Assembly (NCBI GenBank): GCA_016194585.1 | Contig: JACQBG010000011.1 | Location: 1-64,000, forward strand | Length of the DNA: 64,000 nt | Direction of reading: 5' to 3' | Origin: Gemmatimonadota bacterium | GTDB lineage: Bacteria > Gemmatimonadota > Gemmatimonadetes > Gemmatimonadales > Gemmatimonadaceae | Shown: positions 50,070 to 64,000 of the stretch, in pieces | How positions within the stretch are numbered: the first letter of the stretch is position 1 | How the letters are laid out: every line of letters begins with the position of its first letter | Notes under the pieces: generated by a model | The model's database searches: none | What the model was told of the DNA's origin: nothing | Seen by the model: only the letters and a program-made list of their open reading frames with translations | Made by a program: the position numbers and the translations under genes

Positions 50070-50223
50070 TATTAATAACGGTGGTCTTGCTCCGCTCGAG
50101 AGAGTGGCGCCAAGACCAGGCAACCTCTTGTCGCATCGCCGGTTCTAACTGGGCGTGCCTCGCTCACGCCCACCGCGATCGCGACGCCCGGTGCGCCCGC
50201 CGATTCCTCGACTTCCTGCTCCA
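50070..50223 (+). promoter_or_regulatory. Promoter and structured leader of large TonB receptor
   Basis: The 323-base gap before the receptor holds a -10-like TATTAAT (50070-50076). Immediately after it comes a perfect 7-base stem GGTCTTG (50083-50089)/CAAGACC (50111-50117), then AGGCAACCTC. The RNA would begin with this hairpin. The AGGCAACC word resembles the conserved part of SAM-I-type elements, but the remaining SAM-I core is absent. The leader is unassigned and no clear ribosome site is seen before the GTG at 50224. Confidence 0.4.
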
Positions 50224-53200
50224 GTGACGCTGCGCCGACTGCTCGTCCTGCTCTCGTTCCCTATCGTCTCGGTCGCCGCGCGCCCCGTGCACGCGCAGCA
50301 GGCGGACGTCATCCGTGGCCGCGTGATCGGCGTGGATTCACAAGCCATCGAGGGCGTGCGGGTGACGGTCACGTCGCTCTCCGGGGCGGTGAACCGTCAG
50401 GCCCGCACCGACAAGAACGGCCGCTTCACGGTGACCTTCCCGAACGGCGAGGGGGACTACTTCGTCAGCTTCAGCGCGATCGGCTACGCGGTGAAGCGGT
50501 TCGAGGTGAAGCGCACGGCCGACGAGGACATCCTCGTCGCCGACGCGAAGCTCTCGCGGACGCAGGATCTCGACGCGATGCGCATCACGGCGCCGCGCGA
50601 CCGCGTCGATCGGAACTCCGTGAACGCCGACGTGTCGGGCACCGAGAAGCAGGTCAACGCCAACGCGCTCACCGCCGATCAGCTCGGCGATCTGGCGAGC
50701 ATGGCGGCGTCGATCCCGGGGATCACGCTGGTGCCCGGGTCCGACGGCGATCCCTCCGGGTTCTCGGCGCTCGGGCTCTCCCCCGACCAGAACAACACGA
50801 CGCTGAACGGCGCCCAGTTCGGCGGCGCCAACCTCCCGCGCGACGCCGCCATCACGAGCTCGCTGGTGACGTCGCCGTACGACGTGAGCCGTGGCGGCTT
50901 CAGCGGTGGCCAGTTCTCCATCAGCACGCGGGGCGGATCGAACTACATCGTGCGGTCGAGTTCGCTCAACGTCGACGCGCCGCAGATGCAGTGGACCGAC
51001 CCCGCCGGGCGCGCGCTCGGGCAGCAGTACTCGAATCTTTCGCTGGGTGGACTCCTCGGTGGTCCGGTGAAGCTGGACGAGTCGTCGTACATGTTCAGCT
51101 ACCAGCTCGGCCGCCGGGCGAACGACCTCCAGACGCTGCTCAACACCGACCCGCTCGGCCTGCAGACGACCGGCATCGCGGCGGATTCGGTGGCGCGGTT
51201 GCGCGCGATCCTCGGCGGGCTGCGCGTGCCGACGACGGTGAGTGGGATCCCGAGCGAACGGCTCGCCGACAATGGGCTGGTGCTCGGCACGTACAACGTC
51301 GCGCCGGCGAGCTCGAAGAGCGGCACGGCGCTGACCGTCACCTATCAGGGATCGTGGAGCAACCAGTCGCCGGCGACGAGTTCGCTGACGTCGGAGTTCC
51401 CGGCGCACAGCGGCGACCGCACGAACTGGAGCGGCTTCGTCTCGGCGCGGCACTCGACGTACTTCGGCTTCGGCATCCTGAGCGAGACGCAGCTCTCGGT
51501 GAACCAGTCGCGCAACTGGGGCACCCCGTATCTGGCGATGCCCAACGGCAACGTGCTCGTGAACTCCGCGTTCCCCGACGGGACGAACGGGGTGAAGTTC
51601 GTGTCGTTCGGGGGCAATCCCAGTCTCGGGGTGAGCTCGCGCAACGGCAGCGTGGCGTTCAGCAACCTGCTGAGCTGGTTCAGCGAGAACAACAAGCATC
51701 GCATCAAGCTGAGCACCGAGCTGCGGCGCGACGGCTACACGCAGGACCAGACGACGAACCTGCTCGGCACGTTCAGTTTCAACTCGCTCGCCGACCTGCA
51801 GGCGGGCCGGCCCGCGATGTTCACGCGGCAGCTCACGCCGCGGCAGCGCACGGGCGCGCAGTTCGTGGGCGCCATCGCGCTCGGCGACTCGTACAAGGCG
51901 AGCAAGGACCTGCAGGTGCAGTACGGCGTGCGCCTCGACGGCAACCAGTACGAGGGCGCGCCGGCGCGGAACCCGCAACTCGAGCAGCTGTTCGGCGTGC
52001 GCAACGACCACGTGCCGAACCAGGTGTACGCGAGCCCGCGCGTCGGCTTCTCGTGGGCGTACGGCACGGCGCCGCAGATCGGTGGGTTCGAGGGAGCGAT
52101 GCGCGGACCGCGCGCCGTCGTGCGTGGCGGCGTCGGCATGTTCCAGAACACGCCGGGCACGACGCTGCTCGGCAACGCGATCGACAACACGGGGCTGCCG
52201 GGCGCGGTGCAGCAGGTGAGCTGCTACGGGCCCGCGGCGCCGACCCCGGATTGGAACGGGTACGCCGGCGATCCCGCGGGGATCCCGACGATGTGCGCCG
52301 ACGGCACGCAGGGGACCATCTTCGCGAACAGCGCGCCCAACGCGGTGCTGTTCGCGCGCGACTACGCCGCCCAGCGTTCGCTCCGCTCGAACCTGCAGTG
52401 GAGCGGTCCCATCCTGAACAACGCGTTCACGGCGACGTTCGAGGGGACGTATTCGCGCAACATGAACCAGCCCGGGTCGTTCGACCTGAACTTCTCGCCG
52501 GTGCAGCGGTTCACGCTGGCCGGCGAGGGGAACCGGCCGGTGTTCGCGAACCCGGCGAGCATCGACCCCGCGACCGGGACGATCGCGAGCCGCGACGCGC
52601 GCGTGTCGACGCTGTACAACCGGGTGAGCGAGATGCGCAGCGACCTCACGAGCCAGAGCTCGCAGTTCCAGGTGCGCCTCTCGCCGGCCACGTTCAGCAC
52701 CACGTGGAGCTGGAGCCTCGCGTACGTGTACGCGGACTACCGCGAGCAGTACCGCGGCTTCCAGAGCACCGTGGGGGATCCCACCCAGGTGGCGTGGGGA
52801 CGATCGGGGATGGACCAGCACCACCAGATCCAGTATTCGCTGGGCTACAACTTCTTCGACGCGGTGCGGGTGAACTGGTTCGGCAGCATCCGCTCCGGGG
52901 CGCCGTTCACGCCGACCGTCGCCAGCGACATCAACGGCGACGGCTACGCGAACGACCGGGCGTTCATCTTCGACCCCGCGAAGACCGCCGATCCCTCGGT
53001 CGCCGCGGCGATGCAGCAGCTCCTCGCGGGGAGCGCGAAGAACGTGCGCGACTGCCTCACGCGGCAGCTCGGCCAGCTCGCGTCGCGCAACAGCTGCGAG
53101 GGACCGTGGACGACGACGGCCAACCTCAACATCTCGTTCAACCCGCTCAAGCTCGGGCTGCCGCAGCGCGCGACGCTGACGCTCGGCGTCAACAACCCGC

Positions 53201-53958
53201 TCGGCGCGGCCGACCTGCTGCTGCACGGCGAGGACCACCTGAGGGGGTGGGGACAGACGCCGTTCGCCGACCCGCAGTTGCTGTACGTGCGCGGCTACGA
53301 CCCGGCGGCGCAGCGGTTCAAGTACGAGGTCAACCAGCGGTTCGGCGCGACGAGCCCGGCGTTCAACCAGTTCCGCAACCCCGTCGTCGTGACGGCGATG
53401 ATGCGCTTCGACCTCGGGCCGACGCGCGAGGCACAGGCGCTCACGCAACAATTGAACGCCGGACGCCGCACGCAGGGGAACAAGCTGAACGAGTCGGTGC
53501 TGCGCATGATCTACGGCAGCGGCGGCGGACTCGTGAACCCGATGTCGACGATGCTGCGGCAGGCCGACTCGCTCGGCCTCACGACGAAGCAGGCCGACAG
53601 CCTCGCGACGCTCAACCGGTGGTACGTGGTGCGCCTCGACTCGATCTGGAGTCCCGTGGCGAAGTACCTCGCGGCGCTCCCCGACCGCTACGACGAGGGG
53701 GCCGCGTACGCGAAGTACCGGGCGGCGCGCGAGGGCTCGGTCGACCTGCTCGTGCGACTCGCCCCCGGCATCAAGGGGCTCCTCACGCCCGAGCAGCGGC
53801 GCAAGCTCCCCTCGATCGTGGCGAGCTACATCGATCCCCGCTATCTCTCCGGCATCCGCAGCGGCACCGCCGGCGGCAGCTTCAACCCTTTCGGCGGCAT
53901 GGGTGGTGGCGCGCCGATGGGTGGCGACGGCGGCACCAGAATCATGATCGTCCGATAA
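50224..53958 (+). CDS. Large TonB-dependent receptor with LTxxQ periplasmic tail
   Basis: A 1244-residue Oar-like receptor. Signal peptide (about 1-25, RPVHAQQ), CarboxypepD_reg domain (about 28-115), plug (about 120-260, with ALGLSPDQNNTTLNGAQFGGANLP) and barrel to about residue 1065 (VTAMMRFDLG). Unusually, about 180 further residues follow, mostly helical. They carry two LTxxQ motifs, LTTKQ at about 1119 and LTPEQ at about 1187, as in Spy/CpxP periplasmic chaperones, and a Gly-rich end. The tail should lie in the periplasm. Start at GTG 50224 puts the signal peptide first; a GTG at 50155 is an alternative. Cargo unknown. Confidence 0.9.
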   Translation: MTLRRLLVLLSFPIVSVAARPVHAQQADVIRGRVIGVDSQAIEGVRVTVTSLSGAVNRQARTDKNGRFTVTFPNGEGDYFVSFSAIGYAVKRFEVKRTADEDILVADAKLSRTQDLDAMRITAPRDRVDRNSVNADVSGTEKQVNANALTADQLGDLASMAASIPGITLVPGSDGDPSGFSALGLSPDQNNTTLNGAQFGGANLPRDAAITSSLVTSPYDVSRGGFSGGQFSISTRGGSNYIVRSSSLNVDAPQMQWTDPAGRALGQQYSNLSLGGLLGGPVKLDESSYMFSYQLGRRANDLQTLLNTDPLGLQTTGIAADSVARLRAILGGLRVPTTVSGIPSERLADNGLVLGTYNVAPASSKSGTALTVTYQGSWSNQSPATSSLTSEFPAHSGDRTNWSGFVSARHSTYFGFGILSETQLSVNQSRNWGTPYLAMPNGNVLVNSAFPDGTNGVKFVSFGGNPSLGVSSRNGSVAFSNLLSWFSENNKHRIKLSTELRRDGYTQDQTTNLLGTFSFNSLADLQAGRPAMFTRQLTPRQRTGAQFVGAIALGDSYKASKDLQVQYGVRLDGNQYEGAPARNPQLEQLFGVRNDHVPNQVYASPRVGFSWAYGTAPQIGGFEGAMRGPRAVVRGGVGMFQNTPGTTLLGNAIDNTGLPGAVQQVSCYGPAAPTPDWNGYAGDPAGIPTMCADGTQGTIFANSAPNAVLFARDYAAQRSLRSNLQWSGPILNNAFTATFEGTYSRNMNQPGSFDLNFSPVQRFTLAGEGNRPVFANPASIDPATGTIASRDARVSTLYNRVSEMRSDLTSQSSQFQVRLSPATFSTTWSWSLAYVYADYREQYRGFQSTVGDPTQVAWGRSGMDQHHQIQYSLGYNFFDAVRVNWFGSIRSGAPFTPTVASDINGDGYANDRAFIFDPAKTADPSVAAAMQQLLAGSAKNVRDCLTRQLGQLASRNSCEGPWTTTANLNISFNPLKLGLPQRATLTLGVNNPLGAADLLLHGEDHLRGWGQTPFADPQLLYVRGYDPAAQRFKYEVNQRFGATSPAFNQFRNPVVVTAMMRFDLGPTREAQALTQQLNAGRRTQGNKLNESVLRMIYGSGGGLVNPMSTMLRQADSLGLTTKQADSLATLNRWYVVRLDSIWSPVAKYLAALPDRYDEGAAYAKYRAAREGSVDLLVRLAPGIKGLLTPEQRRKLPSIVASYIDPRYLSGIRSGTAGGSFNPFGGMGGGAPMGGDGGTRIMIVR

Positions 53959-53966
53959 CGCAGCTC

Positions 53967-53991
53967 CGCGCGGGCCGACCGGGCCCGCGCG
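53967..53991 (+). terminator. GC hairpin between receptor and propeller genes
   Basis: Ten-base arms 53967-53976 and 53982-53991 with loop GACCG, eight bases after the receptor stop. It could terminate or attenuate into the next gene, 18 bases further on. Confidence 0.6.
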
Positions 53992-54009
53992 ATCTTCCGA
54001 TAACGAGCC

Positions 54010-55353
54010 ATGAACCTACCGACGAAGCTCATCCGCCTTTCCGCGATCGGCACCTGCGGCGCCCTAGTGGCCGCGACGGCCGGCGCGCAGCAGCCCACGG
54101 TGCGCGAGCGGCCGCTCGGGCCGATCGTGCACGCCTCGAAGGAATTGCTCGGCGCCGTGTCGGCCGTCCGCGGGCTGCCGAACGGCACCCTGCTCGTGAA
54201 CGACATCACGGGGCGGAAAGTCGTGCTGTTCGACTCGACGCTCTCGACCTACTCCGTCGTCGCCGACACGACGAGCGCGACGGCGAACGCGTACAGCTCG
54301 CGCGCCGGCGGCCTCATCCCGTGGAAGGGCGACACGACGCTGTTCGTCGATCCGAATTCACTCTCGATGCTCGTGCTCGACGGGGCGGGGAAGGTCGCCC
54401 GCGTGATGAGCGTGCCGCGCGCGAACGAGGCGCCGTTCCTCATCGGCGGCCCGAACGGCACGCCGGGCACCGATCCGCAAGGGCGGCTGCTCTTCCGCGG
54501 CATGCCGAACATGATGCGCATGATGGGCGCGCTCAGTGGCGGCGGCGCGCCGTCGATGCCCGACTCGGCGCCCCTGCTCCGCATCGATCTCGCGACGCGC
54601 AAGCTCGACACCGTCGCCGCGCTGAAGATCCCGAAGCAGAACGTGTCGATCAACCGGAGCGACGACGGCCGCGTGAGCGTGAACGTCACCGTGAACCCGA
54701 TGCAGGTGGTGGACGATTGGGCGATCCTCCGCGACGGCTCGGTGGCGGTGCTCCGCGGGCAGGACTATCACATCGACTGGGTGCGTCCGGACGGGTCGCA
54801 CGCGTCGACGGCGAAGATCCCCTTCGACTGGAAGCGGATGAGCGACGAGGACAAGATCGCGTTCATCGATTCGTCGCGCGTGGCGATGGAGAAGCTGCGC
54901 GCCGCGGCGCTCTCCGGGAACCTCAACGCCGCCGCCGCCGGGGCGGGCGCGGTGATGGGGGGCGGACAGCAGGTGCGCATCGAGATGCGAGGTGACGGAC
55001 CGATGCCGCCGCCGCGCGGCGGCGGAGCCGGCGACCGCTCGGGCGGACCGGGAGGCGTCGGGAACGTGAACGTGCCGCCGATCACCATGGTCTCGCCGAG
55101 CGAGCTTCCCGATTACGCGCCGCCGTTCGCCGCGGGCTCGGCGCGCGGCGACCTCGACGGCGACCTCTGGGTGCGCACGAGCAAGGTGGTGAACGGCGGA
55201 TCGGTGTACGACGTGATCGACGGCAAGGGGCAGCTCGTCGACCGGGTGCTCGTGCCCGCCGGCCGCGTCATCGCCGGGTTCGGCCCGGGCGTGGTGTACA
55301 TGGGCGTCCGCGATGGCGCCGGGGTGCGATTGGAGATCGCGCGGGTCAAGTAG
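54010..55353 (+). CDS. Secreted beta-propeller-like protein
   Basis: A 447-residue protein. Signal peptide (about 1-26, TAGAQQ). Repeated blades of the six-bladed/NHL type follow: AVRGLPNGTLLVNDITGRKVVLFDSTL, LFVDPNSLSMLVLDGAGKVARVM, RDGSVAVLRGQDYHIDWVRPDGS and VVNGGSVYDVIDGKGQLVDRVLVPAGR. A Gly/Pro/Arg-rich insertion occupies about 305-355. No catalytic motif is visible. It follows the large TonB receptor by 51 bases across a GC hairpin, suggesting a shared role in surface recognition or nutrient handling. It converges on the hybrid kinase gene, 12 bases away. Confidence 0.75.
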   Translation: MNLPTKLIRLSAIGTCGALVAATAGAQQPTVRERPLGPIVHASKELLGAVSAVRGLPNGTLLVNDITGRKVVLFDSTLSTYSVVADTTSATANAYSSRAGGLIPWKGDTTLFVDPNSLSMLVLDGAGKVARVMSVPRANEAPFLIGGPNGTPGTDPQGRLLFRGMPNMMRMMGALSGGGAPSMPDSAPLLRIDLATRKLDTVAALKIPKQNVSINRSDDGRVSVNVTVNPMQVVDDWAILRDGSVAVLRGQDYHIDWVRPDGSHASTAKIPFDWKRMSDEDKIAFIDSSRVAMEKLRAAALSGNLNAAAAGAGAVMGGGQQVRIEMRGDGPMPPPRGGGAGDRSGGPGGVGNVNVPPITMVSPSELPDYAPPFAAGSARGDLDGDLWVRTSKVVNGGSVYDVIDGKGQLVDRVLVPAGRVIAGFGPGVVYMGVRDGAGVRLEIARVK

Positions 55354-55365
55354 TCGCGGCGCACC

Positions 55366-57882
55366 TCACCGCCCGCCGTCGTCCGTCGCGAGGGCGCCGC
55401 TCACGGCGCGCAGGAAGCTGGCCGCCGAGAACGGCTTCGCGACGATCGCCCTCACGGCGGCCGGGAGCGGCGCGCTCCCCTTGCTCTCGGCAGCGAACCC
55501 CGTGACGACGATGATCGGCGTGCCCGGGCGCATCGCCGTGAAGCGCGCGATCACCTCTCGTCCCGAGACGACCGGCATCATCATGTCGGTGACGAGGATG
55601 TCGATCTGGCGCGCCGCGTCCGCGGCGACGGCGATCGCCTCGCCCCCGCTCGCGGCCTCGATCACGCTGAACCCCGCGCGCTCGAGCATGCGGCGGCTGA
55701 GGCGGCGCACGCCGGTCTCGTCGTCGACGAGGAGCACGACGCCGCGGCCGCGCGGTTCGGCGGCCTCCGGAGCGACGACCGTGGATTCGGGCGACGTGCC
55801 GCGCGCGAGCGGCAGGTGCACGGCGACGGTCGTCCCGGCCCCCGGCGCGCTCTCCACCGTCACGTGTCCGCCGGCGCGGCGCACGATGGTGTCGACCATC
55901 GCCAGTCCGAGGCCGGTGCCGAGTCCGGGCGCCTTGGTCGTGAAGAACGGCTCGAAGATGTGGCGCAGGTCCTGCTCCTCGATGCCGACGCCGCCGTCGC
56001 GGATGCGGACGACGACCCGTGCCGCCGCCGCGTCGTCGGTCGTGGGGGACGACGGCGGCTCGACGTCGAGCGACACGCCGATGACGCCGCCCGCCGGCAT
56101 CGCGTCGCGTGCGTTGGCGACGAGGTTCACGAGCACCTGTTCGAACTGCGCGCGATCGAACAGCACGTGCGCGTGCCGGTCGGCGAGCGAGAGGTCGATG
56201 GTCGTGCCGCGCGGGAGCGAGCGGCCGAGTGCCGGTACCAGCGCCTCGATGGTCGCCGCCACGGGGAGGTGCACCGGCTGGATGACGTGGCGCCCGCTGA
56301 ACCCGAGCAGTTGACGGGTGATGCCCGCGCCACGATCGGTCGCCGCGCGGATCGACGCGATATCCTCGCGCGCGGCGGGCAAGTCCTGCAGCTGGACCGA
56401 GAGCAGTTCCGCGTGACCGGCGATCACCGCCAACAGATTGTTGAACGTGTGCGCGATACGCCCCGCGATGTCGTGCAGCGTCACCAGCGTCGCGGTGCGA
56501 CGCAGGCGTTGCTCGAGCGCACGCTCGCCTGAGACGTCACGGCCGTTCACGATGAAGCCGCGCACTCGCGGATCGTCGCGACGATCCGCGATCCGGAGTT
56601 CGAGTTGCGACCACGCGCCGTCTTTGCCGCGTACGCGGCAGGTGAGCGGGAGCGCATCGCCCTGCGGCGTCGCTCCGCCGAGCCAGCGCATCGTTCGCTC
56701 CCGGTCGTCCGGGTGGATCACGTCGGAGAAGGCCTCGCCGATACGCACGAGGTCGGTGCACGAGGGACTCGTCCACGCGACGCGGTACGCTCCGTCGACG
56801 ACTGCGATGCGGTCCGACGCGTTCGTGAGCAGGGCGAGGAATCGCTCTCCCTCGGCGAGCGTCGCCCGCGCGAGCCGCTGGTTCTCCGTCAGCTCGGCAC
56901 GCTGGCGCACGATCAGTAGCGCGGTCATGAGACTGGCGGCGACAGCGATCAGCATCGCGTCGGGCCCTTTCTCGAGGACGATCACGGCGAGCAGCAGGTA
57001 GGCCGCCGCCACGAACGCGGTCGGGGCGATGCCGCTGCGGTACGACACCTCGACATCGTCGGCGCCCGTCACCTGCATGCGCTGCGTCGCGTGCCATGCG
57101 TAGCGCGCCGACGCCCAGCGCACGATCCAGCTCGCGAACCACAACGCGTCGACCGCGTCGCCCGGCCGATAGAGCGTCTCTGCTTGACTCCAGAAGAAAT
57201 CGGCGAGCACGCCCCAGACGATGGCCGCCATCGAGAGCGCGATGGCCGTCCTCATGACGCGGCTTCGGGAGCGGAGGTACGCGAACGCGGCGGTGGTGAA
57301 TACGACCAGGTCGCCGATGTTCGAGACGTAGTCGTCGACGCCAGGTCGTATGGATGACACGTACATCGCCCGGCCGGAGAAGTACCATGACACGGTCATT
57401 CCCGCGGTCGCGAGGAGGAGGGCGTCAAGAAGTGCTCGCCGATCGCGAAGGGTCACCTGCGCTGCACGCGGAAAGAGGAGATATCCCGCCGTCGCGAGCG
57501 GCAAGGAGGCGTCGGTCAGCCACCTCGACCAGCCCGGGTCGGGCAAGGACGGGCTTCCGTGAAGGAGCTTCCAAGCCGTCCACGCCGCACCACTGACGAA
57601 GATCATGGTCGCCGATGCGGCGAGCATCCCCCAGGCTTGCCGCGTGCGACGGTCGAACAGTCCGGACCGGGCAATCTGAATTTGCGCGAGGATGGTCGCA
57701 ACGGCGAGGCCGAAGTACATGACGATGTCCGCGGACCTCAGCCAGCCGGGGCCGACCTGTGTGAGCGCGTGCACCACCAGGTACGCGAGCGAATACGCGG
57801 CGACGAAGCAATCCCAGCGCGTACATCGGAGCAGACGACGCCCCGCCAGAGTGCCCGTCGCGACGCCGGCGGTCGGTGTCAT
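55366..57882 (-). CDS. Membrane hybrid histidine kinase with receiver domain
   Basis: An 838-residue protein. The N-terminal half (about 20-330) has nine or ten membrane helices. A PAS domain (about 355-465) precedes the dimerisation helix with phospho-His478 in RIAHTFNNLLAVIAGHAEL. A full ATPase domain follows: N-box NLVANARDAMPAGG, DGGVGI, FTTKAPGLGTGLGLAMV. The C-terminal receiver has VDDE, phospho-Asp in LVTDMMMP and VAKPF. It is a complete NtrB-like hybrid kinase. The ATG overlaps the upstream kinase stop (ATGA), giving strict coupling. The ligand sensed by the membrane part is unknown. Confidence 0.94.
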   Translation of the reverse strand: MTPTAGVATGTLAGRRLLRCTRWDCFVAAYSLAYLVVHALTQVGPGWLRSADIVMYFGLAVATILAQIQIARSGLFDRRTRQAWGMLAASATMIFVSGAAWTAWKLLHGSPSLPDPGWSRWLTDASLPLATAGYLLFPRAAQVTLRDRRALLDALLLATAGMTVSWYFSGRAMYVSSIRPGVDDYVSNIGDLVVFTTAAFAYLRSRSRVMRTAIALSMAAIVWGVLADFFWSQAETLYRPGDAVDALWFASWIVRWASARYAWHATQRMQVTGADDVEVSYRSGIAPTAFVAAAYLLLAVIVLEKGPDAMLIAVAASLMTALLIVRQRAELTENQRLARATLAEGERFLALLTNASDRIAVVDGAYRVAWTSPSCTDLVRIGEAFSDVIHPDDRERTMRWLGGATPQGDALPLTCRVRGKDGAWSQLELRIADRRDDPRVRGFIVNGRDVSGERALEQRLRRTATLVTLHDIAGRIAHTFNNLLAVIAGHAELLSVQLQDLPAAREDIASIRAATDRGAGITRQLLGFSGRHVIQPVHLPVAATIEALVPALGRSLPRGTTIDLSLADRHAHVLFDRAQFEQVLVNLVANARDAMPAGGVIGVSLDVEPPSSPTTDDAAAARVVVRIRDGGVGIEEQDLRHIFEPFFTTKAPGLGTGLGLAMVDTIVRRAGGHVTVESAPGAGTTVAVHLPLARGTSPESTVVAPEAAEPRGRGVVLLVDDETGVRRLSRRMLERAGFSVIEAASGGEAIAVAADAARQIDILVTDMMMPVVSGREVIARFTAMRPGTPIIVVTGFAAESKGSAPLPAAVRAIVAKPFSAASFLRAVSGALATDDGGR

Positions 57883-60005
57883 GCGAACGCACTCGGCAGG
57901 AATATCGCGGTGCACGCCTGCCCGCCCGCCTCGCCGGCGGCGACCGCCCCACCGATCTCGCGGACCGCGACGTGCACGAGGAGTGTGCCGAGGTCGCCGG
58001 GCGACGTCTCCCAGTTGTCCGCCAATTGCGGAATCGCGAACCGAGAGTGCGGCACGCCGTCGTCGTGCGCCGCGCCGACGCGAACCACGATGAAATGGCC
58101 CGGCGCCAACTCGAGGCGGCCCGCGTCCGCGGCATCGAGAGTCTCGACGGCGAGCCCTACCGAAGCGCGGATGTTCGACGGACGCGCCACGAGGTGCTCG
58201 CTCAGGAGTACGTCCAGGGCGTGCCGCAGCGACGCCGCGTCAGCGCGCACGACGAGGCGTTCGTCCTGGGCCAGGTGCGAGGCATCCAACCCTGCCGACT
58301 CGAGGCTGTCGTGCACGAGACGACCGACGTTGACGAGCTCGAACGACTCCTGCTTGCGACGGCTGAGCGTCAGAAGGGCGTTCGTCACGGCGAACGTCCG
58401 GTTCGTCGCCTCTTGGATCGTCTGCAGATCGGCCAGCGCCTCCGGCCGTGACGCCGGAACTTCGGCGCGCAGGAGCTCGACATGCGATCCGACGACGGTG
58501 AGAAAGTTGTTCAGGTCATGCGCGAGCCCTCCCGCGAACACACCGAGCGCCTCGGCCTCCTTCGCGGCCTGGATCTGCTGCGCGAGTTCGACCTCGCGCG
58601 TGATGTCGTGGCCGTTGATGACGACGGACGCGACGAGCGGATCGTCGCGAAGATCCTGGAAACGCGCCTGCAGCTCGTGGCGGCCGCCGTCTCGCGACTC
58701 GATGCGCAGCAGGAGGAGGGTCGGGGCGAAGGGATGTTGTGCCAGAAGATCGGTCGCACGGGCGCGGTCGTCGGGATGCAGGGCGGAGAACAACTCGGAC
58801 ACCGCCTTCTTTCCAGGCGCGACAGAGAAGAGTCGCTCCGATGCCGGACTCGCGTAGCTGACCTGACCGTCGCCGTCCACGAGCACCAGCACGTTGTACG
58901 CGTGATCCAGGACCGTGCGGTGCCATGCCATCCTCCCGAGACGCACCTCGTCAAGCCGTTCGTATTCCCGCAATTCGACGATCTGCCGCGCCACGAGGAG
59001 CGCGGCCATCACGCCACTCCCGAGGGTGAACAGCGAGGTCTCGGTGAGACCGAGTGCGAGTTGGATCAACAACACGCCCGGCACCGCGGCGACGAACAGG
59101 TACGGCAGGGCGCCGCTCACGTACCCCTCGGTCGCGTCCGGACCGACGCTGGTGGGCGTGCCGAGCGTGGTCAGCGCGCGTCGGGCGGCGACGTACTTGA
59201 GCGCCCACACCGAGAAGAAGGCGATGTCGATCCAGTCGCCGGGGTGGAACGTCGCGAGGTGCCTGCCCGTCAACCACGCGTCGGGAACGACGTGCAGCAG
59301 GTGCGAGATGAGCAGGAGCAGCGCGACGCTCCGCGTGAGCGGACTGCCGCTCCGCAGGTACAGCACCGCGGCGAGCACGATGGCGAGGGAGTCGCCTGCG
59401 GTGTTCACATAGTCGGACAGCGTCACCTGCGGCTTGCCGAGCAGGTTCGGCTCGATTGCCAGATACCACACGAGCAGGATGCTGCCGACCAGCACGACCA
59501 GGGCATCGAGGACGAAGCGCCGTCGATCGGCGCGTCGGCGCGGAGCACTCGGGAACGCGAGCAGCGCCGCGCTGCTGAACACGGCGTGCAGCGCGATGAG
59601 GGCGGTCAGCCAGACCGGGAGCGTGCCGGCGCGGCCCGTGAGCAACAACGCGCTCCAGAGGTTCCCCGAGACGAACCGCGAGAACGACGCCGCGGCGAGC
59701 AGCCGCCATGCGAGCCGATCGCGTGCGTCGCCCACTTCCCCCGCGACGTGCAGCTGGAGCCAGCCGACGACGAGCCCGAGGGGCAGGAAGGCCGCGAAGT
59801 CGATGGCCGCCGCGAGTTGCTCTCCTCCCCATTCGAATGCGATCCAGCCCAGGAACGCGGCCGTATAGGCGAGCGCGGCGAAGTCGCCCGCCCGCCAGCG
59901 CGCCCATCGAGCGGCCGAAGCGGATGGGGTGTCGCGGATCGCGGGGAGGGAGGCGGACATCGCGCTCTCGAAGTGTGGAGCTGGTGCTCGACGTTCCGAA
60001 GCCAT
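57879..60005 (-). CDS. Paralogous membrane sensor kinase with degenerate ATPase domain
   Basis: A 708-residue protein with the same layout as its neighbour: about ten N-terminal helices, PAS (about 375-485) and a dimerisation helix with His496 in GLAHDLNNFLTVVGSHVELL. The ATPase domain is degenerate. The N-box position reads LLSEHLVARP with no Asn, the G1 DxGxG is replaced by GAAHDDGVPH, and no GxGLG motif exists (DLGTLLVHVAVREIGG). No receiver follows. It probably cannot bind ATP and may act as a pseudokinase regulator or heterodimer partner of the hybrid kinase. An alternative start is ATG 59960. Confidence 0.9.
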   Translation of the reverse strand: MASERRAPAPHFESAMSASLPAIRDTPSASAARWARWRAGDFAALAYTAAFLGWIAFEWGGEQLAAAIDFAAFLPLGLVVGWLQLHVAGEVGDARDRLAWRLLAAASFSRFVSGNLWSALLLTGRAGTLPVWLTALIALHAVFSSAALLAFPSAPRRRADRRRFVLDALVVLVGSILLVWYLAIEPNLLGKPQVTLSDYVNTAGDSLAIVLAAVLYLRSGSPLTRSVALLLLISHLLHVVPDAWLTGRHLATFHPGDWIDIAFFSVWALKYVAARRALTTLGTPTSVGPDATEGYVSGALPYLFVAAVPGVLLIQLALGLTETSLFTLGSGVMAALLVARQIVELREYERLDEVRLGRMAWHRTVLDHAYNVLVLVDGDGQVSYASPASERLFSVAPGKKAVSELFSALHPDDRARATDLLAQHPFAPTLLLLRIESRDGGRHELQARFQDLRDDPLVASVVINGHDITREVELAQQIQAAKEAEALGVFAGGLAHDLNNFLTVVGSHVELLRAEVPASRPEALADLQTIQEATNRTFAVTNALLTLSRRKQESFELVNVGRLVHDSLESAGLDASHLAQDERLVVRADAASLRHALDVLLSEHLVARPSNIRASVGLAVETLDAADAGRLELAPGHFIVVRVGAAHDDGVPHSRFAIPQLADNWETSPGDLGTLLVHVAVREIGGAVAAGEAGGQACTAIFLPSAFA

Positions 60006-62197: not shown

Positions 62198-64000
62198 TCA
62201 GGAGATCGTCTTGCGCGGTGGGACGTAGACGGCCGGGAGCCCGAGCTCCTGCAGCATCTTGTTGAACGCCGCGAGGTCGCCGTCCTCGAGCTGCTGGAGG
62301 CGCTGCAGCACCACGTTCAGCTTCCCGCTCAGGTCGTCGGCGACTTCGCCGTGCTGCTTCGTCGGACCGTAGTCACCGGTCTGGATCTGGGCGTTGAGCG
62401 AGAGCAGCATGTTGTACAGCTTGATCGGCTGGTCGAGCGTGCACTCGTCGACGTGGCAGCCGACCTCGTACAGCTCCGTGCGCAACCCCTCGAACTTCTG
62501 CCGCAGCGGCGTCGCCGCGTCGGCCACGCGCTTCGCGAACGGCTGCTCCTTGCTCTGTGCCGTGCGCTGGTCGACCTGTGCCTGGACGTCCTCGATGCGC
62601 GTCGCCGACTCGACGAGCTCCGAGATGCGGTCGCGCACGCGGAGCGCGGCGCGGAACTGCGCCACGAGGTCGGCGTCGGGGGTCTTGACGCGCGGATCCT
62701 TCACGACGGTGAACCGCCGCGTCAGGGTGTCGGCGCCGGCGATGAGGCGCACCGCGTAGTTCCCCGGCGGCGCGACCGGGCCGTCGAGCGTCCCCTCGTC
62801 GAGCACCGTGTTCTTCATCGACTTCGCGCCGGGATACCGCAGATTCCACACGAACCGGTCGGCACCGGGGCGCGCGGCGACCAGGGAATCGGCGGCGTCG
62901 TAGGCGAGGGAGTCGCGCGCCGCGGCCGCCGCGGCGCGCGCCGCCGAGTCGGCGCCGGCGAGCCCGGAATCGCTCGGCGCGGCGCCGCTCTCGTACGTGC
63001 GGATCACCGCCCCCGCCCCATCGAGGAACTGCAGTTTCACGCCATCCTTCGGGCGCTCGCGCAACCAGTAGTCGATCACCGCGCCACCCGCGGGGTTCTC
63101 CCCCTCGGTGAGGCTGCGCCCGCCGCCGCCGAACCAGCGCACCGCCGGCGCGGGCTGGAACAGATGCGCACGCTTCGCCGTCACGCTGTCGGCCATCTCC
63201 CGCAGCGACGACACGTCGTCGAGCGACCAGAAGGCGCGGCCGTGCGTGGCGGCGATGAGGTCGTTGCCGTGGATCGTCAGGTCCCGCACGCTGGAGCGCG
63301 GCAGGTTGAGCTGCAACGGCTCCCAGTGCGCGCCGTCGTCGAGCGACACGTACACGCCGATCTCCGTGCCGGCGTACAGCAGCCCGCGACGCACCGGATC
63401 CTCGCGGATCGTGCGCGCGTAGGCGCCCACGGGCAGTCCTGCCGCGATCGCCGTCCAGCTGCGCCCGTAGTCGGTCGTCTTCCAGAAGTAGGGCTTGAAG
63501 TCGTCCTGCTGGTACCGGTTCGCGGCGACGTAGGCGGTGCCCGCGTCGTGCGGCGACGCCTCGATCCCGGCTGTGCGCGTGAAGGTGCCGTAGCCCTTCG
63601 GCGTCACGTCGTCCCAGTGCGCGCCGCCGTCCTTCGACACGTGCACGAGGCCGTCGTCGCTCCCCGCCCAGAGCACGCCCTTCGTCCTCGGCGACTCGGC
63701 GAGCGCGTAGATCGTCGCGTACCACTCCGTGCCCGTCATGTCGCCGTGGATCGGGCCGCCCGATCGCACCAGCGTCGCCTTGTCGTGCACGGTGAGGTCG
63801 GGCGAGATCCGCTCCCAGCTCTGCCCCTCGTTCGTCGAACGATGCACGTACTGCGACGCGACGTAGAGCGTGTTCGGATCGTGCGGCGAGAGGAGCACCG
63901 GGAACGTCCACTGGAAGCGGAACGGCACGTCGCCCGCCGCCCAGCCGTCATAGTTGTACAGCCACGTCGAGATGTCGCGCTCCTGCCGCGTGCGTCGGTC
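62198..64000 (-). CDS. VPS10/BNR-type secreted propeller protein, 5'-truncated
   Basis: The frame is open to the window edge; about 600 C-terminal residues are present. BNR-type blades are visible (HRSTNEGQSWERISPDL, VHVSKDGGAHWDDVTPKGYG, KTTDYGRSWTAIAAGLP, YVSLDDGAHWEPLQLNLP). A beta-sandwich and a helical C-terminal region (VAQFRAALRVRDRISELVESATR...LQELGLPAVYVPP) follow. It is a paralogue of the 46.6-kb protein without the Gly-rich inserts. No glycosidase site is seen. Two Cys occur in EVGCHVDECTLDQP. Confidence 0.88.
   Translation of the reverse strand, partial: DRRTRQERDISTWLYNYDGWAAGDVPFRFQWTFPVLLSPHDPNTLYVASQYVHRSTNEGQSWERISPDLTVHDKATLVRSGGPIHGDMTGTEWYATIYALAESPRTKGVLWAGSDDGLVHVSKDGGAHWDDVTPKGYGTFTRTAGIEASPHDAGTAYVAANRYQQDDFKPYFWKTTDYGRSWTAIAAGLPVGAYARTIREDPVRRGLLYAGTEIGVYVSLDDGAHWEPLQLNLPRSSVRDLTIHGNDLIAATHGRAFWSLDDVSSLREMADSVTAKRAHLFQPAPAVRWFGGGGRSLTEGENPAGGAVIDYWLRERPKDGVKLQFLDGAGAVIRTYESGAAPSDSGLAGADSAARAAAAAARDSLAYDAADSLVAARPGADRFVWNLRYPGAKSMKNTVLDEGTLDGPVAPPGNYAVRLIAGADTLTRRFTVVKDPRVKTPDADLVAQFRAALRVRDRISELVESATRIEDVQAQVDQRTAQSKEQPFAKRVADAATPLRQKFEGLRTELYEVGCHVDECTLDQPIKLYNMLLSLNAQIQTGDYGPTKQHGEVADDLSGKLNVVLQRLQQLEDGDLAAFNKMLQELGLPAVYVPPRKTIS

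Follow-up and report, generated by a model that had tools for sequence, protein, structure and literature searches.

The 64,000-nucleotide stretch of DNA analysed here (the window) carries two adjacent genes for paralogous membrane sensor kinases, one of which, gene A, has lost the catalytic motifs of its ATPase domain, and the question raised by this locus is what such a protein does next to its paralogue, gene B. The usual assumption is that histidine kinases are homodimers, and the origin of heterodimeric kinases is little known. The first-pass annotation saw in the pair a heteromeric sensor in which a catalytically dead partner is either phosphorylated in trans or regulates the hybrid kinase. 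The pairing and the degeneracy proved to be kept in 11 pairs, so that this part of the reading stands; the hybrid kinase itself is not a normal complete one, given that its own phosphoacceptor box is degenerate. The description of the two proteins as ten-helix PAS kinase paralogues whose genes overlap by ATGA was accurate: the genes lie on the same strand and overlap at 57882-57879, and both products have a PAS domain and a DHp besides the ten predicted helices. All starts are predicted, and the start of B was taken as the ATG at 57882, the 57915 of the open reading frame list being an upstream GTG.

57879..60005, minus strand: gene A, 708-aa sensor pseudokinase (ten-helix membrane domain, PAS, HisKA and degenerate ATPase domain, without receiver)
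55366..57882, minus strand: gene B, 838-aa hybrid kinase (ten-helix membrane domain, PAS, DHp, HATPase_c and receiver)
57879..57882, minus strand: ATGA overlap of the A stop and the B start, read from the sequence

In the AlphaFold2 models (mean pLDDT 78 each, from 19 aligned sequences for A and 16 for B), ten long helices, the PAS fold, the DHp helix pair and an ATPase-like fold are seen in both proteins, and a receiver in B only. The membrane domain has no Pfam match in either A or B and was hardly probed by the fold search. This ten-helix membrane sensor domain (window 57819-56815 and 59921-58899) recurs, besides A and B, in numerous single hybrid kinases of the order.

The domains of A are as follows (here and below, rows are those of the 41-row alignment used for the column counts).

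58899..59921, minus strand: A ten-helix membrane domain and linker, residues 29-369 (AlphaFold2 helices; no Pfam match over that part)
58605..58898, minus strand: A PAS domain, residues 370-467 (weak sub-cut-off Pfam PAS matches; model strands; PAS-kinase structures in the fold search)
58350..58601, minus strand: A DHp/HisKA, residues 469-552, with intact H-box HDLNN (HisKA 30.6 bits, above the cut-off; HD[LV]NN in 11/11 A rows)
58518..58520, minus strand: A His496, putative phosphoacceptor (invariant in 11/11 A rows)
57882..58349, minus strand: A pseudo-ATPase domain, residues 553-708 (Bergerat-like fold; catalytic motifs lost, by column counts; no HATPase_c match)

The H-box of A, A-H496-D-L-N-N, is a HisKA phosphoacceptor box of the form H-[DE]-x-x-[NT], as it is in all 11 A rows. 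HATPase_c, with its N, G1 and G2 boxes, has no Pfam match in A of the window at E<=10, and at E<=1 it was found in none of the eight A proteins scanned (one of them cut inside the domain), all eight of which match HisKA; the search of PHROGs with A gave just weak or unspecific matches. The initial claim that this kinase keeps His496 and is without the N-box Asn, DxGxG and GxGLG is thus confirmed by the column counts given below. A is not a pseudokinase of the DivL type, in which the phosphoacceptor His is replaced: the phosphoacceptor position of DivL is a Tyr, and the PDB title of the DivL structure in the fold search says tyrosine kinase, whereas the His is present in 11/11 A rows. A fits the sequence definition of Amin et al. 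(PMC3591291) for HisKA proteins without HATPase that keep HE/DxxN/T; in a SMART count, 1,556 of 42,417 HisKA proteins were without HATPase, 711 with this motif (PMC3591291, partial text).

The CA part of the A model retains a kinase ATPase fold, matching ThkA (3a0y) with Z 14.1 and rmsd 2.8 across 129 residues; pLDDT is below 50 at residues 661-669, in the region of the ATP lid. The alignment behind this model includes active relatives, so that the modelled fold may be partly imposed and supports, at most, that A keeps the shell of the ATPase fold without the motif residues. A normal ATP lid and Mg site did not appear in the model, which has the fold only, a low-confidence lid stretch and lost motif residues; nor did relatives with an active A appear, the motif set being absent from every A orthologue whose ATPase domain can be read. 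We rejected the possibility that A is a decaying pseudogene: the frame is open in all A rows and full length in the eight that are not cut by contig ends, and the DHp is conserved. Between the window genome (G000) and genome G257, A is 41% identical in the CA part and 66% in the DHp, the respective values for B being 73% and 79%. That A keeps H, D and N invariantly while its ATPase part diverges fast argues that the A histidine is in use.

The lesion of B lies elsewhere.

56815..57819, minus strand: B ten-helix membrane domain and linker, residues 22-356 (AlphaFold2 model)
56536..56814, minus strand: B PAS domain, residues 357-449 (AlphaFold2 model; PAS_3 below the cut-off)
56284..56517, minus strand: B DHp, residues 456-533, with altered H-box HTFNN and Arg at H-3 (HisKA 19.2 bits, below the cut-off; B-specific columns)
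56446..56451, minus strand: B His478-Thr479, acid lost at 479 (Ala (10) or Thr (1) in 11/11 B rows)
55798..56283, minus strand: B ATPase (CA) domain, residues 534-695, motifs intact (HATPase_c 89.2 bits; N590, D629, G631, G633, G655, G657 and G659 in 11/11 B rows)
55384..55743, minus strand: B receiver, residues 714-833, phosphoacceptor Asp766 (Response_reg 68.1 bits; D766 and K816 in 10/10 readable B rows)

B had been credited with intact H, N and G boxes and a receiver. This holds for the ATPase motifs, with HATPase_c (89 bits), and for the receiver (68 bits), both of which have the catalytic residues of a HisKA hybrid kinase and are matched by Pfam in 8/8 scanned B proteins. It does not hold for the H-box, A-H478-T-F-N-N, where His478 is kept and Thr479 replaces the Asp or Glu that follows the histidine in HisKA hybrid kinases, HisKA scoring 19.2 bits against a Pfam cut-off of 26.9. 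The DHp of B is also changed at H-3 (Arg in 11/11 rows, Gly in A and the others), at H-8 (His in 10/11 B rows) and after helix 2, where the Arg of the L/F-S-R motif is missing (Gly in 10, Asp in 1); A retains the letters of the relatives at H-3 and H-8 as well as this Arg. CckA, VirA-like and AtoS models were among the matches for B, and the CckA and ZraS structures were among the structure matches.

The losses in A and B are conserved reciprocally, A being of the HD type and B of the H-Ala/Thr type in 11 of 11 pairs. Profile searches of the family, together with a protein search over 250 genomes of the order, detected A in 10 of the 179 family genomes; at the chosen thresholds, each of these 10 has B as well and no genome has one gene without the other. 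The lowest-scoring A reached 683 bits versus 322 for the next protein outside the pairs, and the lowest B 884 versus 534. Over 395 genomes of the phylum, the A profile found 8 genomes with A, all in this family (Gemmatimonadaceae). The eleventh pair came from a scan of named GTDB contigs and is located on L081 (JAGWOC010000124.1), from a bin labelled Chloroflexota, with 49% (A) and 59% (B) identity to the proteins of the window; this contig, with its Gemmatimonadaceae-type pair, is likely mis-binned. In all 10 readable junctions, the A stop overlaps a possible B start (ATGA, TGATG or GTGA). The genomes are largely multi-contig assemblies (G036 is the sole single-contig assembly among the ten pair-bearing genomes of the family): A and B of G280 are on different contigs, and most of A of G242 is on another contig than B.

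Columns were counted over 41 rows, comprising 11 A, 11 B, 12 single-gene relatives and 7 Acidobacteriota sequences. The phosphoacceptor H and the Asn at H+4 are present in 41/41. At H+1, D is found in 11/11 A rows and in 19/19 single-gene or Acidobacteriota rows, and Ala (10) or Thr (1) in 11/11 B rows. Outside A, all the ATPase motif columns counted are invariant (30/30 for N586, N590, D629, G631, G633, G655, G657 and G659). In A, N586 occurs in 0 of 10 readable rows; D629, G633 and G655 in none of the 11 rows, one or more of which are cut there; and the counterpoints to the loss are an Asn at the N590 column in one row (G144) and single glycines left in some rows (G631 in 1, G657 in 2 and G659 in 4). 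The A row of G280 ends before the ATPase domain and that of G242 is cut inside it; in the C-terminal A piece of G242, which lies on the other contig, inspection by eye showed no G box either. Chance loss in one genome was rejected given that the reciprocal losses are kept in 11 pairs; these pairs trace to one event per loss, such that the 11/11 counts measure conservation, not independent origins.

The residue after the histidine is also acidic in most H-boxes recognised in the window genome. A motif scan over the 51 places with a HATPase_c match, with categories counted by hand, recognised an H-box in 38 and none in thirteen. D or E follows the histidine in 35 of the 38, the rest being B itself (T, L187), L205 (Q) and a doubtful match, L201; among the boxes recognised by the scan, the other FNN-type ones (H-x-F-N-N) are acidic at H+1 in 17/17 cases (16 D, 1 E). 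L205 (G000:C24:38716-39940) is another kinase with a non-acidic residue after the histidine (SAHQLGTPLSSL; HQLGTPL) and has a GWGIGL G-box; non-acidic boxes may, therefore, not always be dead.

An acidic residue after the His is required for the autokinase activity of HisKA kinases, its replacement abolishes kinase but not phosphatase activity in CrdS, HK853, HK4262 and HK1190, NtrB E140 mutants behave alike with kinase-minus phenotypes, and Asn/Thr at H+4 is the phosphatase residue (PMC3510030, partial text). Because these mutants lose the kinase activity only, B should be kinase-dead on its own histidine yet phosphatase-competent, the consequence of H-Ala/Thr in B being transferred from these other kinases; A should be phosphorylatable and unable to use ATP. 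Among the four combinations of histidine and ATPase domain, only the A histidine with the B ATPase has all parts, so that kinase output would need both proteins. From these sequence patterns, we consider it likely that the two proteins make up a split histidine kinase, an obligate heterodimer in which the B ATPase phosphorylates His496 of A and this histidine feeds the B receiver. Heterodimerisation we infer from the co-occurrence and overlap of the genes and from the correlation of their distances (see below).

In the proposed mechanism, the DHp helices of A and B would pair in one bundle, the ATPase domain of B would phosphorylate A His496 in trans, and the phosphoryl group would pass to Asp766 of the B receiver and then to a putative output partner; since A is without a receiver, transfer to that of B is the simplest next step. 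If the DHp were of a strictly cis type, the B ATPase would not reach the A histidine. The Asn at H+4, used for phosphatase activity, is present in both DHps, such that the pair could also run backwards as a phosphatase. With a membrane and PAS sensor on each protein, the pair could act as a two-input AND gate. As the phosphoacceptor box of B is degenerate too, the pair reads as reciprocal, not as one active kinase plus a dead regulator.

The latter arrangement is nevertheless an alternative to be weighed: A might be a regulatory pseudokinase, itself not phosphorylated and with a vestigial histidine, that acts much as DivL or RetS do, binding B and modulating its active homodimer. The ATPase motifs of A are indeed lost, and pseudokinase or inhibitory regulators of hybrid kinases are known, namely, DivL/CckA and RetS/GacS (PMC9491836, partial text). 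We find this explanation unlikely, given that H, D and N of the A-box are invariant in 11/11 although the A ATPase domain diverges fast, and that B has lost, in 11/11, exactly the acid that is needed for kinase and not for phosphatase activity in the kinases of PMC3510030 (partial text). Somewhat less probable still is that B autophosphorylates its own His despite Ala/Thr at H+1, which would make it an ordinary hybrid kinase and A an extra phosphoacceptor. His478 and Asn482 are retained in 11/11 B rows, and Gln stands at H+1 in one further kinase of the genome; however, replacement by Ala, Gly, Gln and even Asp killed the kinase activity of CrdS, the change of acid to Ala made three further HisKA kinases kinase-deficient (PMC3510030, partial text), and the exceptions to the acidic residue in the genome-wide scan are B, L205 and one doubtful match.

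The split-kinase model leaves the retention of His478 in 11/11 B proteins unaccounted for, except via phosphatase or back-transfer use. The H-Ala-x-x-N box resembles the kinase-minus, phosphatase-plus mutants (PMC3510030, partial text), as would be expected if the B DHp were a dedicated phosphatase, with the B ATPase taking part in no kinase reaction and a third kinase phosphorylating the A histidine. This scenario, against which stand the fully conserved ATPase motifs of B, the strict co-occurrence of A and B and their correlated distances, we regard as highly improbable.

The split-kinase principle that we favour for A and B is already known, and reciprocal complementation at the DHp level in a membrane hybrid-kinase pair appears to be new. 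A and B have the same family of DHp and ATPase domains as the HisKA kinases of the NtrB/ZraS/CckA type, which are homodimers with both activities on one chain. As proposed for A and B, neither CheA3 nor CheA4 of Rhodobacter sphaeroides autophosphorylates alone, one giving the histidine and the other the ATPase; these proteins are of the CheA family, with whole domains absent (P1 from CheA4; P3 and P4 from CheA3; PMC3591291, partial text), whereas A and B are both membrane PAS kinases with a DHp each, and their losses are point-level or degenerate. FasB and FasC of group A Streptococcus are, like A and B, two adjacent kinase-like membrane proteins, for which the authors proposed a heterodimer with the FasB kinase domain phosphorylating His246 of the pseudokinase FasC; they are predicted to have six transmembrane domains, and the response regulator, FasA, is a separate protein, with no receiver on the kinase (PMC12675982, partial text), unlike A and B with their ten helices, PAS, receiver on B and loss of the acid in the B DHp. 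Hik36/Hik43 of Synechocystis, termed a split histidine kinase, have the Hpt and ATPase parts on separate proteins but, unlike A/B, are chemotaxis-like (Hpt, CheW-interaction domain) and encoded far apart (PMC7656254, partial text). In DivL/CckA and RetS/GacS, a pseudo- or inhibitory kinase is partnered with a hybrid kinase, as in A/B (PMC9491836 and PMC12189002, partial texts); according to such partial texts, DivL needs neither its ATPase domain nor the autophosphorylation residue, whereas A keeps a complete phosphoacceptor box, and RetS and GacS can form homodimers too. Searches of an open-licence library, covering mostly titles and the starts of abstracts, brought up no such pair in Gemmatimonadota and no natural pair with the acid lost in the partner with the active ATPase. 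Beside the known split kinases, the searches did not list residue-level reciprocal loss in the partner, family-wide conservation or complete cousins.

These cousins and the history of the pair were approached through two trees. The first comprised 47 rows, the partial sequence S_G024 being dropped; for the second, with 41 rows, ten more single-gene relatives were dropped (seven with a different C-terminus, three long-branched) and only the membrane and PAS columns were used, the DHp/ATPase columns being left out, so that neither trait was in the data. Both trees recovered the same groups of A, B and the Acidobacteriota copies (X), with support in the second tree of 100/99 for the A clade, 100/98 for B, 100/99 for Acidobacteriota and 100/100 for the three together versus the single-gene relatives. 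Since A and B are separate clades, each loss is needed only once, on the stem of A and on the stem of B, and each has stayed for about nine substitutions per site (summed branch length within each clade). The distances within A and within B correlate (r 0.83, with 1 of 10,000 permutations as high). The order of the A/B split and the Acidobacteriota divergence hangs on the grouping of B with X, which has support of 80/47.

Two such kinases, of which a single one has a receiver, occur in each of three Acidobacteriota genomes, at the following places.

L088:109-4724: Acidobacteriota kinase pair, adjacent
L230:5537-10167: Acidobacteriota kinase pair, adjacent
L223 with L228: Acidobacteriota kinase pair, on two contigs

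HD and a complete set of ATPase motifs are found in all these kinases and in the lone one of G515, and the 12 single-gene relatives are likewise catalytically complete by their motif columns. The first-pass annotation had suggested checking whether relatives keep the same degenerate pair; this is the case for the 11 pairs, and the next outgroup, Acidobacteriota, has pairs with both members complete. By these motifs, there are tandem pairs that share the receiver asymmetry of A and B and in which both partners are apparently complete; this may be the ancestral state or may reflect a separate duplication. The A/B pair probably arose by duplication followed by complementary loss. We lean slightly towards a more specific history, in which A and B were born by tandem duplication, the needs of autophosphorylation were divided between them through reciprocal losses at the residue level (His-Asp but no ATPase remained in A, the ATPase but no Asp in B), and the result was fixed in the family as an obligate two-sensor AND gate, the tandem pairs of the other phylum having both partners complete.

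The sequences by themselves provide a hypothesis open to testing: the two lesions complement each other, orthologous pairs are numerous, and cousin pairs that look undamaged are available for comparison. If true, it would provide a clean natural case of duplication-degeneration-complementation that turned a homodimeric enzyme into an obligate heterodimer and separated the kinase and phosphatase roles; in theory, bifunctional split kinases can give switch-like responses (PMC3591291, partial text). Annotation by domain presence labels A and B as ordinary or broken kinases, and neither label may fit. A Chloroflexi contig, L090, suggested by a regex search as a second independent pseudokinase pair, was dropped; its protein has readable N- and G-box-like motifs.

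Comparison of the neighbourhoods of the pair loci identified no neighbour gene common to all pairs, and a shared neighbour as the output partner was rejected, none being found across genera. In Acidobacteriota, an ABC transporter and a permease follow the L088 pair and also follow the receiver-less member in L087; a search for them among 16 other fetched loci gave one weak match only. A large protein family encoded at window 62198-64000 (minus strand) has members close to the A/B pairs of G050, G144 and G088, as well as to the Acidobacteriota pair L088; it may simply be abundant. Two genes lie downstream of the pair in the window (50155-55353), one encoding 1267 aa with a CarboxypepD_reg domain and the other 447 aa with no Pfam match; G050 (L032), from the same genus, has them next to its pair in this order as well.
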